This document shows positions 30,417 to 40,582 of a DNA stretch of 45,365 nucleotides, one piece after another; within the stretch, counting starts at the first letter, position 1; each line of letters starts with the position of its first letter. The DNA is from an uncultured Elusimicrobia bacterium (GTDB lineage: Bacteria > Elusimicrobiota > Elusimicrobia > Elusimicrobiales > UBA9959): positions 1-45,365 of the forward strand of contig CAIRNJ010000087.1 of the NCBI GenBank assembly GCA_903879915.1, written 5' to 3'. A program made the translations under genes and the position numbers. The notes below the pieces were generated by a model that was not told the origin of the DNA, made no database searches, and saw only the letters and a program-made list of their open reading frames with translations.

Positions 30417-30789
30417 AGACCGCGGACGGAGGGCCGCTCTTTCGCGCAAGCGGGGGGGAGGAACTTCCGAACTTCACAGGGCAGGGTGCCGGTTCAAAGC
30501 CGTTAAGCGGCCATAGGCCGGGAGGCGGGGGCTACATCCCCCGTCGACGGACAGCGCCACAGAGAACATACCGCCCGTAAGGGTAAGGGTGAAAAGGTGC
30601 GGTAAGAGCGCACCGCGTCCGCAGAAATGCGGACGGCAGGGCAAGCCCCTCCTGAAGCAAGGCCAAAATTGCGCCTGGATAGCCCGTCCGTCCCCCTCCG
30701 GGGGGAGGCGCAGAGTGGGCCGCAACAGATAAATGGTCCTCCAGGCCCCGCAAGGGGCCGGACAGAATTCGGGGTACAGTCCGCGGTCT
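30417..30789 (+). ncRNA. rnpB: RNase P RNA, bacterial type A
   Basis: About 373 nt. The ends pair perfectly over 11 bp: AGACCGCGGAC (30417-30427) with GTCCGCGGTCT (30779-30789), then an A-run. Conserved blocks are in order: GGAGGAACTTCCGAAC (P4 5' strand), CAGGGCAGGGTGCC, ACAGAGAACATACCGCC, GGTAAGGGTGAAAAGGTGCG then GTAAGAGCGCACCG, GAAGCAAGGCCAAAA and GGACAGAATTCGG (P4 3' strand). It is the catalytic RNA that trims tRNA 5' leaders. Two P4 positions depart from the consensus on both strands (see findings). The flanking genes are the zinc-ribbon protein and a 90-aa orphan. Confidence 0.96.
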
Positions 30790-30813
30790 AAAAAAATCTG
30801 GCGCCGGAGGCTT

Positions 30814-35511: not shown

Positions 35512-36396
35512 ATGCGCGCCATAGCCGCCTGCCTTATATTCTTTTTCTTTCTCCCGGGCCTGCCGGGGGCTTTCGAAGACAGGCCCGAGCTTGAGCCTTA
35601 CGCGCGGCTGGACAGCAAGCTGGTAAAAGAAGGCTCGGCCTTCCTGAAAAGCCCCTCGCACAAGAACGTTTACTGGACCCTCAACGATTCCCGCAACTCT
35701 CCCGCCATCTTCGCCTTCACGCGCGACGGGCACCTGATAAAGCCGGAGGCCGCGTCCGAGTCCGCTTACAAAGGCATACTGGTAAGCAGCGCGGCGAACG
35801 CGGACTGGGAGGCCCTGGCGGCCGACGACAAGGGGAATCTGCTGATCGGCGATATCGGCAATAACCGCAACCGCCGCAAGAACCTGGCCGTCTATATTTT
35901 CCCGGAGCCCGACCCCGTCCGGGATCTGGTTTCCACGGCGGCTTTAAAAGTGCAGTTCCGCTACCCTGACCAGGAGGCTTTTCCGCCCAAGCTGATGAAT
36001 TTCGACGCGGAGTCGCTGTTCTGGGCGGGCGGCAGGCTTTACCTTGTGACCAAGCACCGTTCCGATACCATGGCGAAACTTTACCGGTTCGATTCACTGG
36101 AGCCGAATGTTGTAAATACGCTTAAGCTGGTCGCTTCTTTCGACGTGAAAGCTATGGCCACCGACGCGGCCGTGAGCCCGGACGGCAAAAGGCTGGCGCT
36201 GCTCACCTACGACGGGGCCTGGCTGTTCGAAAAGCCCGCGCGCTCCGATAATTATTTCGCCGGGGCGAAAAAACGGTTCTTCTTCGGCGCGGGGCAATGC
36301 GAGGGGATAACTTTCGACGGGCCGGACACGCTGGTCGTCTCCAACGAGGAGGGCGGGCTGTTCGAGCTGAAGGTCTCCAGCTTCACGCGCCGCTAG
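35512..36396 (+). CDS. Secreted beta-propeller-like protein
   Basis: 294 residues. A signal peptide (MRAIAACLIFFFFLPGLPGAF) is followed by repeated strand-turn units: NVYWTLNDSRNSPAIFAF, DWEALAADDKGNLLIGDIGNN, AESLFWAGGRLYLVTK, DAAVSPDGKRLALLTYDGAWLF and CEGITFDGPDTLVVSNEEGG. These resemble blades of SdiA-regulated or esterase-like propellers. No catalytic residues can be named. It should be periplasmic or surface-exposed. Its stop TAG is formed by the CTAG that also gives the stop of the convergent sensor gene. Confidence 0.7.
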   Translation: MRAIAACLIFFFFLPGLPGAFEDRPELEPYARLDSKLVKEGSAFLKSPSHKNVYWTLNDSRNSPAIFAFTRDGHLIKPEAASESAYKGILVSSAANADWEALAADDKGNLLIGDIGNNRNRRKNLAVYIFPEPDPVRDLVSTAALKVQFRYPDQEAFPPKLMNFDAESLFWAGGRLYLVTKHRSDTMAKLYRFDSLEPNVVNTLKLVASFDVKAMATDAAVSPDGKRLALLTYDGAWLFEKPARSDNYFAGAKKRFFFGAGQCEGITFDGPDTLVVSNEEGGLFELKVSSFTRR

Positions 36397-39300
36397 CGCT
36401 CTTCTTTTCCGGTTCCCTGTTCTCCGAGCTTGGGGTTCCTGGCGAAATCCTGCAATTTAGAGGTAAGTTCGGCCGCCCGCGTGACGGCCTTGATTATCTG
36501 CGAGATCTCCCGTTTGAGGGGGTTCGCCGCGGTAAGTTCGTCGTCTATCATGGTGGCGTAGCCGTTGATGGCGGCCAGCGCGTTGTTGAAATCGTGCGCC
36601 ATGGGCCGGGCTACATTGCTCAGGGCTTCGGACGCCCTGGCCGCCGCCAGCTCCGATTCCATTTTTTTAATGCCCGTGATGTCGTGCGTCACGCCCAGCA
36701 CGCCCACTGTTTTACCGGCGGCGTCGCGCAGCGGCGTTTTTACGGTATTGAGATAATATCTGCCCGAGGGCCGCACGCTATCGTGCACCAGCGTTACGGT
36801 CTTCCCGGTGCGGATCACTTCGCGGTCGTTCTTCACCGCCTCGCGGGCCGCCTCGGCCGGAAAAATTTCCATGTCGGTCCTGCCCACCGCGGCCTCCGGC
36901 TTCAGGAGGGACATGTCGGCGAAGGCCTTGTTGAACTTCAGATACCTGCCCGTCAGGTCCTTGATGAAGATAGCGTCTTTCGCGGTCTCAAAGATGGTCC
37001 GCAGCGTTTCCTCGCTGTCCCGCAGCGCGGCTTCCACCTGCTTCTGCCCGGTGATATCGCGGCAGGTGGTGAGCGTGGCCGGCCTGCCTTCCCAGTCCAG
37101 GGCCTGGGAAGCGGCGGAAACCGTGATGATGGAGCCGTCCTTGAGCCTGTGCCGGGTTTCGAACCGGAGATGGCTGGTGCGCAGCAGCTGCGCCACGCTG
37201 CGGGCGATGTTGGTGGCTTCCTCGGGGAGCTCTATGTCCGCGGCGGTCATCTCCGAGAACTCGCTCTTGGTATAGCCGTATACCTTGCAGGCCGCTTTGT
37301 TGACGGCCAGTATTTTCCCGTCCATGCCGTATATGAAGGAGGGGTTTATCATGTTGTCGAACAGCAGGCGGTATCTTTCCTCGCTTTTGAGCAGCCAGGT
37401 CTCGATCTGCTTGCGTTCGGTTATGTTCTCGTGCATCAGCACGAAGCGTTCCGGCTGCCCGGCGTTGTCGGTCAGGGGGAAGATTATCGTCCGCACCCAG
37501 ACCGGGACGTCCGGGAAGTCGGGGGAGACGTCATGGGCGTTGTAACAGGCGTCCGGGAAGTGCGCGACCTCGCCTTTTTTAACGCGTCCGAACAGGTCTT
37601 CGAAACCCTGCTGCTTTAGCTGCGGATCGTTGAAAATAGAAAAGCCGGGAGGCGGCACGGCGCCGAACAGGCGGGTGTGCGCGGCGTTCACTTTAAGCGT
37701 GAAACCGTCCTTGTCCACTATCTGTATCGACATCGGATTCTTGTCCACTATGTCCTGCAGCAGCTTTTCCGCCTGCCGCCGCGCGGAGATGTCGTGGAAG
37801 ATCCCCTGTATGACCTCCCTGCCGTCCAGGGTCAGCCTGGAGGCGCTTATCTGCACCTGCGCCAGCGCCCCGTCCTTGCGCAGGATCTCCGCCTCTTCGA
37901 GGCTCACCGCGTTCTTGAGGGTGTGCTCGCGGAACTGTTTTTTGTAATGCGCCGCCTCCGCCGGCGGATGCAGTTTCAGCCGGTCCAGGCCTATCAGTTC
38001 TTCGCGCGTCCGCCCGGTAAGTTTCTCCGCGTCCTTGTTGGCGTCCAGTATGGTGCCTGTGACGGCGTCGGCGATGAATATGGCCGCGTTGGCCTTCTCG
38101 AAAATAGTCCGGTACTTCGCCTCGCTTTCGGCCAGCTGCTGTTCGGCGTTGCGGTAGGCGGTGATATCGCGCACCACGCCGGTTATTACCGGGGCCGCGC
38201 CCGGGCGGGGGACGAAGGAGTTCTTCTGCTCTACCCAGGAGTACGTGCCGTCCTTGTTCAGCAGCCTGTAGGCCAGCACGGGCAGCAGGTTTCGCCCGGC
38301 TTTTACCGCGGCGAGGAAGGCTTTTTTTACGCGTTCGCGGTCGGTCGGGTGTATGAATTCCGCGAAGTGGCGCCCGACGATCTCTCCCGGCGCGTAGCCG
38401 TAAATTTCGGCCGCGCGGCTTACGTAGACCAGCTCGCCTTTCACGCTCATGTTGTAGATCACGTCGCTGGAAGTGTCCAGTATGGCCTTGTATTTCGCGT
38501 CGTCGGTCTGCTGCCGCCGCTCCGCCAGTTTGTGGCGCAGCATCAGGGCGTAGACCCGCGCCAGTTTTTTTACCGCGTCCAGGGCGGCCGGCTGGTAATC
38601 TTCCGGCGGATTGGCCAGGGCGAGTATGCCTATCAGTTCTTTGCCTGAAATGGCGGGGGCCGCGGCGAACCTGTCCACCCTGATATGGCCGCCGGGCAGG
38701 CTGCCCGCGCGGGGGTCGGCCGCCGCAGAGTTGCTGATCAGGGGCTTGCGCTTTTTCAGCACCCAGCCCCAGAGCCCTTTGAATTCCCTGAAGATCGTGT
38801 CCCCGGCCTTCAGCCGGCGGTTCTTCCACACTTTATCGGTAAGAGTGGGCACGTGCAGCCAGCCCGTTGCGGGGTCTATGTAGCCGGCGAACCCGAACCC
38901 GCTGCCGGTAAGGCGCCGCGCCTCGTCAAGGACGGCCCTCGAGATCTCCTCCATGGAGATGGCGGGGAAGGCCAGAAAAAGCTCTTCAAGGTGGGTTACC
39001 GCGTCCGCGATATCGCGCTCGCGGGTAAGCTGTTTTTCCCTGCTTTCCTGGGCCAGGCGCCCGCTTATGGTCTTTGCCGCTATCTCCAGCAGCTGCGCGG
39101 AGCAGGCGGCCGGCTTCGCGGCGCGCGCCAGCAGGCGGCCTTTGGCCGCGCCGTCCTGGATGGGCGCGCTTAAAAGGTCCTTGGGTAATTTTTTGCCGGC
39201 CCGGACGAGGGCCGAAAAACGGCGCTGCTCGGCCTGCGTGAAATTCACGGCCGTGGTGAAAAGAGGCCGGTCGTTCCCGGGGCGCAGCACCGCCGCCAGC

Positions 39301-39458
39301 CCGGTGCCGGGGCCGAGGGCGTCCGGCCTGCAAAGTATGGCCATGGTCCTGCGCAGGAAAGCGTCGAGATTATCCGGCGAGGCCGCTATCAGCAGCAGGT
39401 CCCGCAGGGCTTCCCCGCAGGCGTCCGTGGCGTTTTTTTCTGCTGCAGGTTTTCGCAT
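36393..39458 (-). CDS. Multi-PAS sensor with DHp but no ATPase domain
   Basis: 1021 residues, soluble. An N-terminal region of about 150 residues is not recognised. A GAF-like domain (about 165-320) and five PAS/PAC modules follow (roughly 330-450, 455-575, 580-695, 700-820, 825-945; see VVRDITAYR, IFHDISARR, MHENITERK, TCRDITGQK and VTHDITGIK at their ends). The DHp helices have a possible phospho-His in MAHDFNNALAAINGYA. The protein ends about 50 residues later (LTSKLQDFARN), so the HATPase domain (N, G1 and G2 boxes) is missing. Downstream DNA is the antisense of the convergent gene and cannot supply it. It lies 24 bp after its response regulator. Confidence 0.85.
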   Translation of the reverse strand: MRKPAAEKNATDACGEALRDLLLIAASPDNLDAFLRRTMAILCRPDALGPGTGLAAVLRPGNDRPLFTTAVNFTQAEQRRFSALVRAGKKLPKDLLSAPIQDGAAKGRLLARAAKPAACSAQLLEIAAKTISGRLAQESREKQLTRERDIADAVTHLEELFLAFPAISMEEISRAVLDEARRLTGSGFGFAGYIDPATGWLHVPTLTDKVWKNRRLKAGDTIFREFKGLWGWVLKKRKPLISNSAAADPRAGSLPGGHIRVDRFAAAPAISGKELIGILALANPPEDYQPAALDAVKKLARVYALMLRHKLAERRQQTDDAKYKAILDTSSDVIYNMSVKGELVYVSRAAEIYGYAPGEIVGRHFAEFIHPTDRERVKKAFLAAVKAGRNLLPVLAYRLLNKDGTYSWVEQKNSFVPRPGAAPVITGVVRDITAYRNAEQQLAESEAKYRTIFEKANAAIFIADAVTGTILDANKDAEKLTGRTREELIGLDRLKLHPPAEAAHYKKQFREHTLKNAVSLEEAEILRKDGALAQVQISASRLTLDGREVIQGIFHDISARRQAEKLLQDIVDKNPMSIQIVDKDGFTLKVNAAHTRLFGAVPPPGFSIFNDPQLKQQGFEDLFGRVKKGEVAHFPDACYNAHDVSPDFPDVPVWVRTIIFPLTDNAGQPERFVLMHENITERKQIETWLLKSEERYRLLFDNMINPSFIYGMDGKILAVNKAACKVYGYTKSEFSEMTAADIELPEEATNIARSVAQLLRTSHLRFETRHRLKDGSIITVSAASQALDWEGRPATLTTCRDITGQKQVEAALRDSEETLRTIFETAKDAIFIKDLTGRYLKFNKAFADMSLLKPEAAVGRTDMEIFPAEAAREAVKNDREVIRTGKTVTLVHDSVRPSGRYYLNTVKTPLRDAAGKTVGVLGVTHDITGIKKMESELAAARASEALSNVARPMAHDFNNALAAINGYATMIDDELTAANPLKREISQIIKAVTRAAELTSKLQDFARNPKLGEQGTGKEER

Positions 39459-39482: not shown

Positions 39483-40169
39483 CTACTCGAACTTGTAGCC
39501 GTGGCCGGGCACGGCGGTGATGCGCTTGGCGAAAGTTCCGGTCTTTTTACGCAGGTTGGAGATATGCACTTCTACGGTGTGCGGGTTGTTGTAGTCCGCG
39601 GTGTTGTAGCCCCAGACAGCCTCGAGCAGGCCGGTCAGGCTGAGCACGCGCCCGGGATTGGAGACCAGGGCGGTGAGCAGGTCGAATTCCTTGGAGGTAA
39701 GCTTCAGGAGTTTCCCGTTGATCTTGGCCGTGCGCCCTTCCAGGTTCAGTTCCAGGGCGCCTTTTCTTATGACGGGGGCCTTTTTTACGCGCGCCGCCGC
39801 CCGGCGGACCACGGCTTTGATCTTCGCCAGCAGCAGGGGATAGGAAAAAGGCTTCGTTACGTAATCGTCCGCGCCGAAGGAATAGCCGGAAACCATGTCG
39901 CCGTCGGAGATCTTCTTGCCCGACATTATTATCAGCGGCGTTTCGCCCAGGGTCCTGGATTCCTTTATCCTGCGGCACAGGGTGAACCCGTCCATGTTGG
40001 GCATGTCCACGTCGGTAATGATGATGTCGGGTTTTGAGGCGGCGGCGGCGGCCAGCGCTTTTTCGCCGTCCGCGGCCAGTACGGCCTCGAAGCCGCGGTT
40101 CTCGAGGTACCGCTTAAGAATGAGCAGGAGTTCGGGGTCGTCGTCCACTATCAGGGCGCGCTCTTTCAT
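39483..40169 (-). CDS. OmpR/PhoB-family response regulator
   Basis: 228 residues. The receiver domain has an acidic pocket (Asp9-11), phospho-acceptor Asp53 in IITDVDMPNMDGF and Lys106 in YVTKPF. The C-terminal winged helix (about 133-228) has LKLTSKEFDLLTALVSNPGRVLS, TVEVHISNLRKK and the final GHGYKF. It should bind DNA when phosphorylated. It is the first gene of the pair with the PAS sensor. The -10 box TATAAT is 8 nt upstream of the ATG, so the mRNA is nearly leaderless. Confidence 0.92.
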   Translation of the reverse strand: MKERALIVDDDPELLLILKRYLENRGFEAVLAADGEKALAAAAASKPDIIITDVDMPNMDGFTLCRRIKESRTLGETPLIIMSGKKISDGDMVSGYSFGADDYVTKPFSYPLLLAKIKAVVRRAAARVKKAPVIRKGALELNLEGRTAKINGKLLKLTSKEFDLLTALVSNPGRVLSLTGLLEAVWGYNTADYNNPHTVEVHISNLRKKTGTFAKRITAVPGHGYKFE

Positions 40170-40177
40170 ATCGGATA

Positions 40178-40183
40178 ATTATA
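40178..40183 (-). promoter_or_regulatory. -10 element of the response regulator gene
   Basis: On the minus strand TATAAT (40183-40178) lies 8 nt before the ATG, predicting a start near 40171 and a 2-nt leader. No good -35 box. It is immediately downstream of the terminator of the ncRNA on the same strand. Confidence 0.5.
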
Positions 40184-40209
40184 ATACTTTTAACGGGCGG
40201 GAAAGAGGC

Positions 40210-40288
40210 AAAAAAGCGCCCCGCCGGAATTTCTGGGAGAGTTACAAATGCCTTACGAGGAGTCTTATTTGCTGTTGCCCGGCGGGGC
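40210..40288 (-). terminator. Terminator of the 216-nt RNA
   Basis: On the minus strand, GCCCCGCCGG (40288-40279) pairs perfectly with CCGGCGGGGC (40227-40218), followed by GC and TTTTTT (40215-40210). The 51-nt loop is unusually long but contains a smaller hairpin: CAAAT pairing with ATTTG, with CCT/AGG inside it. Confidence 0.6.
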
Positions 40289-40425
40289 TTTAAAGTAAGC
40301 CAGCGCTGCAGGTGCTAGAGCACAGTGCCCGAAGGCCCTGTGTCTTGGGGGTTTGGGTTAGGGGGGCGCACCGCGCAGCGCTGGGGATCAGTTGAATCTT
40401 TAAAAGAGCAGTACTTCTTTCCTAC
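40210..40425 (-). ncRNA. Unassigned structured RNA, about 216 nt
   Basis: Minus-strand transcript predicted from its own promoter (40432-40440) and terminator (40210-40288). In transcript order: closing pair CUUUUAAAG (40406-40398) with CUUUAAAG (40295-40288); a perfect 10-bp stem CCAGCGCUGC (40384-40375) with GCAGCGCUGG (40309-40300); GGUGC (40372-40368) with GCACC (40315-40311); a C-rich strand CCCCCCUAACCCAAACCCCC; and a hairpin with stem CACAG...CUGUG and GCC/GGC closed by a UUCG tetraloop. The cUUCGg loop exists only on this strand. It shows no resemblance to tmRNA, SRP RNA or tRNA that I can see. It could be a free sRNA or a leader/attenuator of the response regulator gene 40 nt downstream. 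Confidence 0.65.
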
Positions 40426-40431
40426 ACTTAA

Positions 40432-40440
40432 AGTATAACA
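40432..40440 (-). promoter_or_regulatory. Extended -10 promoter of the 216-nt RNA
   Basis: On the minus strand, TGTTATACT (40440-40432), an extended -10 element. The predicted start is a G at 40425. TTGAAC occurs upstream (40463-40458) but at a 20-bp spacing. The surrounding DNA is AT-rich. Confidence 0.55.
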
Positions 40441-40582
40441 AAGCGGGTTCAAGAATCGTTCAATTAAGCTTCAAATGATGTTCAAGAGGTCTATCGTCGG
40501 GAATAGCAGAATATGCCCGCCGCGGCGGCGTATTTTTCCGGGGCCCGCGGCCGGGGAGAACATAAAGGCGGCCGCTATTGGG

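Follow-up and report, generated by a model that had tools for sequence, protein, structure and literature searches.

A structured small RNA of Elusimicrobiota with a C-rich bulge, a predicted boxA and a probable two-component regulator box

Introduction

Sponge RNAs of the CsrB/RsmY type carry a repeated loop motif, GGA, occur in several copies per genome and are subject to two-component control. Direct repeats are the layout of those OmpR-family activator boxes that replace the -35 element. The CiaR box of streptococci, TTTAAG-N5-TTTAAG, was searched for at ten from the -10 (PMC3091779). LhrC of Listeria is a multicopy sRNA under the two-component system LisRK (PMC4132741). sX13 of Xanthomonas works independently of Hfq, its C-rich loops acting on G-rich motifs upstream of about 5% of genes (PMC3771888). 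The published boxA consensus, GYTCTTTAANA, comes from rRNA and suhB leaders, in a survey that left out non-coding RNAs (PMC5725501).

Here we describe a small RNA gene on the minus strand of the window (the whole stretch of DNA that was analysed, 45,365 nt). It extends from about 40425, a start placed by promoter geometry, to about 40210; the predicted transcript of about 216 nt has the length given by an earlier sequence-only reading of this DNA. The features of the gene and its neighbours are:

36393-39458, minus strand: histidine kinase, probable partner of the regulator (Pfam GAF, PAS, HisKA)
39483-40169, minus strand: OmpR/PhoB-type response regulator, probable activator (Pfam Response_reg, Trans_reg_C; synteny)
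40178-40183, minus strand: TATAAT, -10 of the response-regulator gene, with a predicted leaderless mRNA
40210-40288, minus strand: SL2/terminator, a 10-bp stem with a loop of about 51 nt, then six Ts
40300-40384, minus strand: SL1, with P1 of 11 bp, P2 of 5 bp, a 5' bulge on one side only and an apical hairpin capped by UUCG
40347-40366, minus strand: C-rich bulge CCCCCCUAACCCAAACCCCC, unpaired and near-invariant, the proposed effector
40399-40409, minus strand: boxA GCTCTTTTAAA, predicted NusB/NusE antitermination site, with one mismatch in the window copy
40432-40440, minus strand: extended -10 TGTTATACT, with 9 bp between the final repeat and TATACT
40447-40485, minus strand: four direct repeats of exact 11-bp period, probable response-regulator box in place of a -35

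With the csRNAs of CiaRH this locus shares several related sRNAs, hexamer-N5-hexamer repeats some 10 bp upstream of the -10 that are bound by the regulator (binding being predicted here), a conserved unpaired region between stem-loops and an intrinsic terminator (PMC3091779). The repeat here is TTGARC, usually fourfold, and not TTTAAG or the NTTAAG-N5-TTTAAG sequence; a boxA is present, and the effector strand is C-rich and lies in a hairpin bulge. Unlike the csRNAs, which expose anti-Shine-Dalgarno and anti-AUG sequences, the bulge holds neither CCUCC nor CAU. The likeness is one of layout and not of any demonstrated relation in sequence. With sX13 the RNA shares unpaired C-rich sites (at least 4 C) in stable stems, and a similar frequency of G-rich motifs (upstream of about 5% of genes in Xanthomonas, and GGGGG at 4% of the starts in this genome); sX13 is independent of Hfq, and no Hfq was found here (PMC3771888). 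In place of the three short 4C/5C apical loops of sX13 there is one 20-nt bulge with fixed UAA and AAA spacers, together with predicted two-component control and a boxA. A repeated short loop motif, several genomic copies and (here predicted) two-component control recall CsrB/RsmY, but the motif is UMAGNC plus a C-rich bulge and not GGA. We know of no comparable C-rich bulge and no boxA in LhrC. LhrC is similar as a multicopy sRNA under a two-component system and different in phylum and sequence (PMC4132741). By the tests made and by analogy, the family would be csRNA/LhrC-like in control and sX13-like in its C-rich site, and a member of neither group.

Results

The sequence-only reading had described an unassigned structured RNA, and all the elements that it listed are present on the minus strand of 40210-40440. 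These are the extended -10 (40440-40432), a perfect stem (CCAGCGCTGC/GCAGCGCTGG, within 40384-40300), a cUUCGg-capped hairpin and a 20-nt C-rich strand (CCCCCCTAACCCAAACCCCC, 40366-40347). The boundary at 40463 had to be moved, since the promoter region extends upstream to 40485. The terminator has the expected 10-bp stem (GCCCCGCCGG/CCGGCGGGGC, 40288-40279 with 40227-40218) and six Ts (40215-40210), but it is not compact, its loop being about 51 nt; this long-loop stem was absent from the list of the consensus scan. In the window the SL2 loop carries the motifs TAAGAC, TAAGGC and TAACTC, spaced 11-12 nt. The whole 221-nt unit folded weakly better than its shuffles (z -1.79; 10 of 200 shuffles did as well), and for the 85-nt core the z value was -4.37, with none of 200 shuffles as good. 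As folding alone was not decisive, relatives were examined.

By DNA similarity, 31 of 61 relatives were found to have the unit, namely 30 of the 32 genomes of the genus (its own included) and one genome from another genus. More than 50 copies were extracted. Most genomes have a tandem pair, each member having a promoter and a terminator of its own, and the window genome has a single copy. In four loci (L006, L023, L024, L025) about 140 nt is inserted between SL1 and SL2 in one of the two tandem copies; the insert has a conserved CGAGAGGGTGTAT...CGCGC segment, with GGGGAAAAAGTTTC in three of the four. The core was made into a covariance model, R1, to which SL1 of the window scores 102.7 bits. 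This model matched 45 of 341 Elusimicrobiota genomes, all from one family and spread over 8 genera; there was no match elsewhere in Elusimicrobiota among the 341 genomes searched. When the pattern of the C-rich strand was searched in 84,980 species genomes, 35 stretches matched, and all were titled Elusimicrobia, Elusimicrobiales or Elusimicrobiota, or were 'bacterium' MAGs with contigs matching genomes of the genus.

Neither the RNA in the window nor its homologues matched any family of Rfam 15 at gathering or relaxed thresholds. The top weak match, sX11, reached 15.5 bits where the cut-off is 70, and is noise. The sole gathering match in the window is a class A RNase P RNA at 30418-30792 (plus strand, 202.6 bits). 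A limited literature search found no small regulatory RNA family for Elusimicrobiota. A 45-aa TTG ORF across the region is not credible as a coding sequence, because the length of the C-run changes by 1 nt between copies and would shift the frame.

Covariation was evaluated on 41 aligned cores. For P1 and P2, 99.8% of cells are paired. When the whole structure is counted, both sides have changed in 14 pairs, giving 57 such cells versus 15.4 in shuffles, with the apical P3 helix off by one column in the outgroups of this alignment (A1), so that P3 counts there understate pairing. Slid partners pair in 29-46% of cells versus 94% for the actual structure. Thus, compensatory changes are found in relatives and the structure is kept. 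P1 and P2 contain 80 G.U cells and no A.C cell; therefore the minus strand is the selected RNA, and an RNA from the opposite strand is ruled out. The C-rich strand varies mainly in C-run length and in AA or AAA. In outgroup genera the sequence of the apical hairpin is wholly different (AAGCA/TGCTT with GGTC/GACC) while the hairpin is retained. With no Rfam match at gathering score and clear covariation, the claim of an unassigned structured RNA is strongly supported: this is a real structured small RNA family absent from Rfam, known here from sequence alone.

The motif TMAGNC (UMAGNC in the RNA) was observed 70 times in 36 SL2 loops versus 3.7 in shuffled ones, at a spacing of 11-13 nt. The SL2 hairpin lies upstream of SL1 in G032, and in genus g14 the UMAGNC motifs do so; the modules are therefore movable.

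Three features that had been missed earlier, the repeats, the boxA and the two-component linkage, suggest how the RNA is made. The repeats in the window are TTGAAC (40485-40480), TTGAAG (40474-40469), TTGAAC (40463-40458) and TTGAAC (40452-40447). Of 58 copies, 41 have all four TTGARC-N5 repeats in phase, and in four far genera nearly every copy examined is preceded by three TTGAR in 11-bp steps. The triple repeat (at most one mismatch) occurs in its own genome only at the RNA promoter. Nearly all matches in relatives are at the RNA, and a reversed control pattern had none. From this arrangement we infer that the OmpR/PhoB-type regulator of the adjoining gene binds the repeats. Rare TTGARC triple boxes were found away from the RNA (L071:1501-1528, L146, L158, L174:4610, L183). 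One such box is flanked by the genes of an OmpR-type paralogue of the regulator (48% identical) and of a secreted protein of 260 aa, and another lies upstream of a conserved gene beginning MGI(D/H)IYA or similar. Paralogous regulators may use similar boxes.

The gene order in the genus is recG (divergent), the RNA or RNAs, the regulator and the kinase. The RNA precedes the regulator in g1, g3, g15 and g16, follows the kinase in g12, g14, g2 and g11 (regulator, kinase, RNA), and lies 1-3 kb from the regulator in several genomes. A -10-like sequence stands just before the regulator ATG at 25 of 27 loci, in the window as TATAAT about 8 bp upstream (40169-40186, minus strand). The linkage is kept and the position changes, which argues for a trans-acting RNA tied to the two-component system and against a leader or riboswitch.

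The boxA consensus is exact in 27 of 58 copies, and a relaxed form is present in 56 of 58. The rRNA leaders of the same genus carry GCTCTCTAAAAAATTATG and the 16S-23S spacers GGYTCTTTGACAATTC, so that the boxA of the RNA resembles the genus's own rRNA boxA. RNAs that are C-rich and untranslated are natural substrates of Rho, so that the predicted protection by NusB/NusE would be sensible. As in rRNA and suhB leaders, a GYTCTTTAANA-type element stands near the 5' end of the transcript; unlike them, the RNA here is short, independent and structured (PMC5725501).

The C-rich strand had been proposed to pair with G-rich Shine-Dalgarno sequences, and three tests gave this no support as a general mechanism within their scope of about 440 kb of stretches and 283 crudely called genes of one genome. 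The duplex energy with the C-rich strand was -10.58 in translation initiation regions versus -10.95 inside genes, with no enrichment at starts. Canonical Shine-Dalgarno sequences are of the GGAGG/AGGAG type (GGAGG at 44 of 283 starts, GGGGG at 12 of 283). Complements of 9-nt seeds before ATG numbered 81 versus 76 with a reversed-pattern control (sums over the table). Beyond the RNA gene itself, its own genome has no complement of the C-rich strand at 15 of 17 or better, and a long antisense target was rejected on this ground. Hfq, whose presence in the genome would mark an Hfq-dependent sRNA, was found in 0 of 41 genomes, with controls detected. By analogy, a small sX13-like set of G-run targets is possible.

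The C-rich motif is also found in other RNAs. Class B consists of single-hairpin RNAs with this motif, and a CCTNCCCTAACCCAAACC-type core is invariant in seven sequences. A second model (R2) has matches in 23 of 59 family genomes, partly the class A RNA itself. Class B RNAs (at L174, L175, L178, L179, L180, L141, L142, L256, L260, L261, L275 and L276) are hairpins of about 65-70 nt with a CCCTAACCCAAACC strand in the loop. Most follow a promoter-like TCTTATAAGATATT or a variant of it, and some are then followed by a U run. They occur as well in G035 of genus g5, where class A gave no match. In two further settings (L172, L173, L176, L177 and L181, L182) the motif stands next to hairpins located 3' of what appear to be genes of CheY-like response regulators, or within GGGCCGGG...CCCGGCCC hairpins of G019. 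About eleven matches in viral contigs look like chance, possibly bar one hairpin. This hairpin (L310:8994-9033, minus strand; 11 bp with a 22-nt loop, AACCCCCUAACCCAAACCCCCA) lies in a temperate-phage contig with an integrase, a CI-like repressor and a RecE-like exonuclease, and is a possible decoy of the C-rich handle; an equally long stem occurs at about 1% of control positions.

Discussion

We favour, with moderate confidence, the view that the RNA is a two-component-activated, boxA-bearing, trans-acting sRNA with its C-rich bulge as effector. By sequence and synteny, the adjoining OmpR/PhoB-type regulator, phosphorylated by the PAS/GAF kinase, would probably bind the TTGARC-N5 repeats and activate the promoter, which lacks a -35. 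The nascent transcript carries the boxA motif, through which NusB/NusE could, with good likelihood, shield the untranslated C-rich RNA from Rho. The RNA would then fold into SL1, in the form borne out by covariation, where a 5' bulge keeps the C-rich strand unpaired, and would end after SL2. Its changing position relative to the regulator genes and the failure to detect Hfq indicate that it very probably acts in trans without Hfq. The most likely role of the bulge, to which we give somewhat less than an even chance, is short pairing with a limited number of mRNAs having G runs near their starts, as for sX13; the less likely alternative is that an RNA-binding protein binds it.

The last possibility leads to the main rival, since the A spacers are kept though pairing gives no reason for it. 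Under this rival an RNA-binding protein would dock at the C-rich bulge and at the UMAGNC repeats and be sequestered there, in the manner of CsrB/RsmY, tandem copies raising the dose. The UAA and AAA spacers are indeed kept in RNAs of differing structure, UMAGNC, in large excess over shuffled loops, has a variable position and differs in copy number, and the target tests gave no complementarity signal. A single C-rich site per RNA is little for a sponge, however, and the proposal names no candidate protein; we consider it rather doubtful.

The other rivals fare worse. In the first, the RNA would act in cis on the operon of the response regulator, as a leader or attenuator whose long-loop terminator sets read-through. 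This would suit g1, where the regulator follows directly on the strand of the RNA and where the RNA has a terminator-like stem at its end. A leader or riboswitch would occupy the 5' UTR of its target gene. This RNA follows the kinase in four genera, lies 1-3 kb off in several genomes, exists as a tandem pair of complete units, and is followed, after its terminator, by the regulator's own TATAAT at the 25 loci noted above. Synteny and the separate promoter thus lead us to reject this improbable reading, which is already largely refuted. 6S RNA, which the sequence-only reading had left possible, would agree with a structured, predicted single transcript of about 200 nt and with the lack of any other 6S in the 61 relatives searched. 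But the 6S model (RF00013) matched none of these 61 relatives, while controls were detected, and in place of the large symmetric central bubble of a 6S rod the RNA has an asymmetric hairpin with continuous P1/P2 and a one-sided 5' C-rich bulge. It is also absent from most of the phylum and is linked to one two-component system, with a regulator box, so that a divergent 6S RNA is most improbable. No more credible is a function of the DNA only, in which the G-rich opposite strand (GGGGGTTTGGGTTAGGGGGG) would form a quadruplex and the transcript would be incidental. The pilE element of Neisseria, a quadruplex DNA with an incidental transcript, is the model for this, and the plus strand does have tracts of G separated by T-rich spacers. 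These do not amount to four clear G3 tracts joined by loops, and covariation with G.U pairs indicates selection on the structure of the minus-strand RNA.

Returning to the two-component-activated sRNA, its C-rich strand may belong to a wider scheme. We put forward as speculative the proposal that these bacteria, in which no Hfq was detected, share a C-rich handle, CCCUAACCC(A)AACCCC, displayed by hairpins on several independent sRNAs (classes A and B, possibly C and D, and perhaps the phage hairpin). All of these would use the handle to contact a single partner, probably a dedicated RNA-binding protein, and chief among them would be the boxA-bearing sRNA, under the control of a two-component system of its own.

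The predicted activator next door, together with the support from covariation, makes the regulation of this RNA directly testable. If true, the boxA of this RNA would take the use of Nus factors beyond rRNA and a few leaders, to a short and independent sRNA. The recurrence of one C-rich strand in RNAs that differ in structure points to a single shared partner, which could be fished out.
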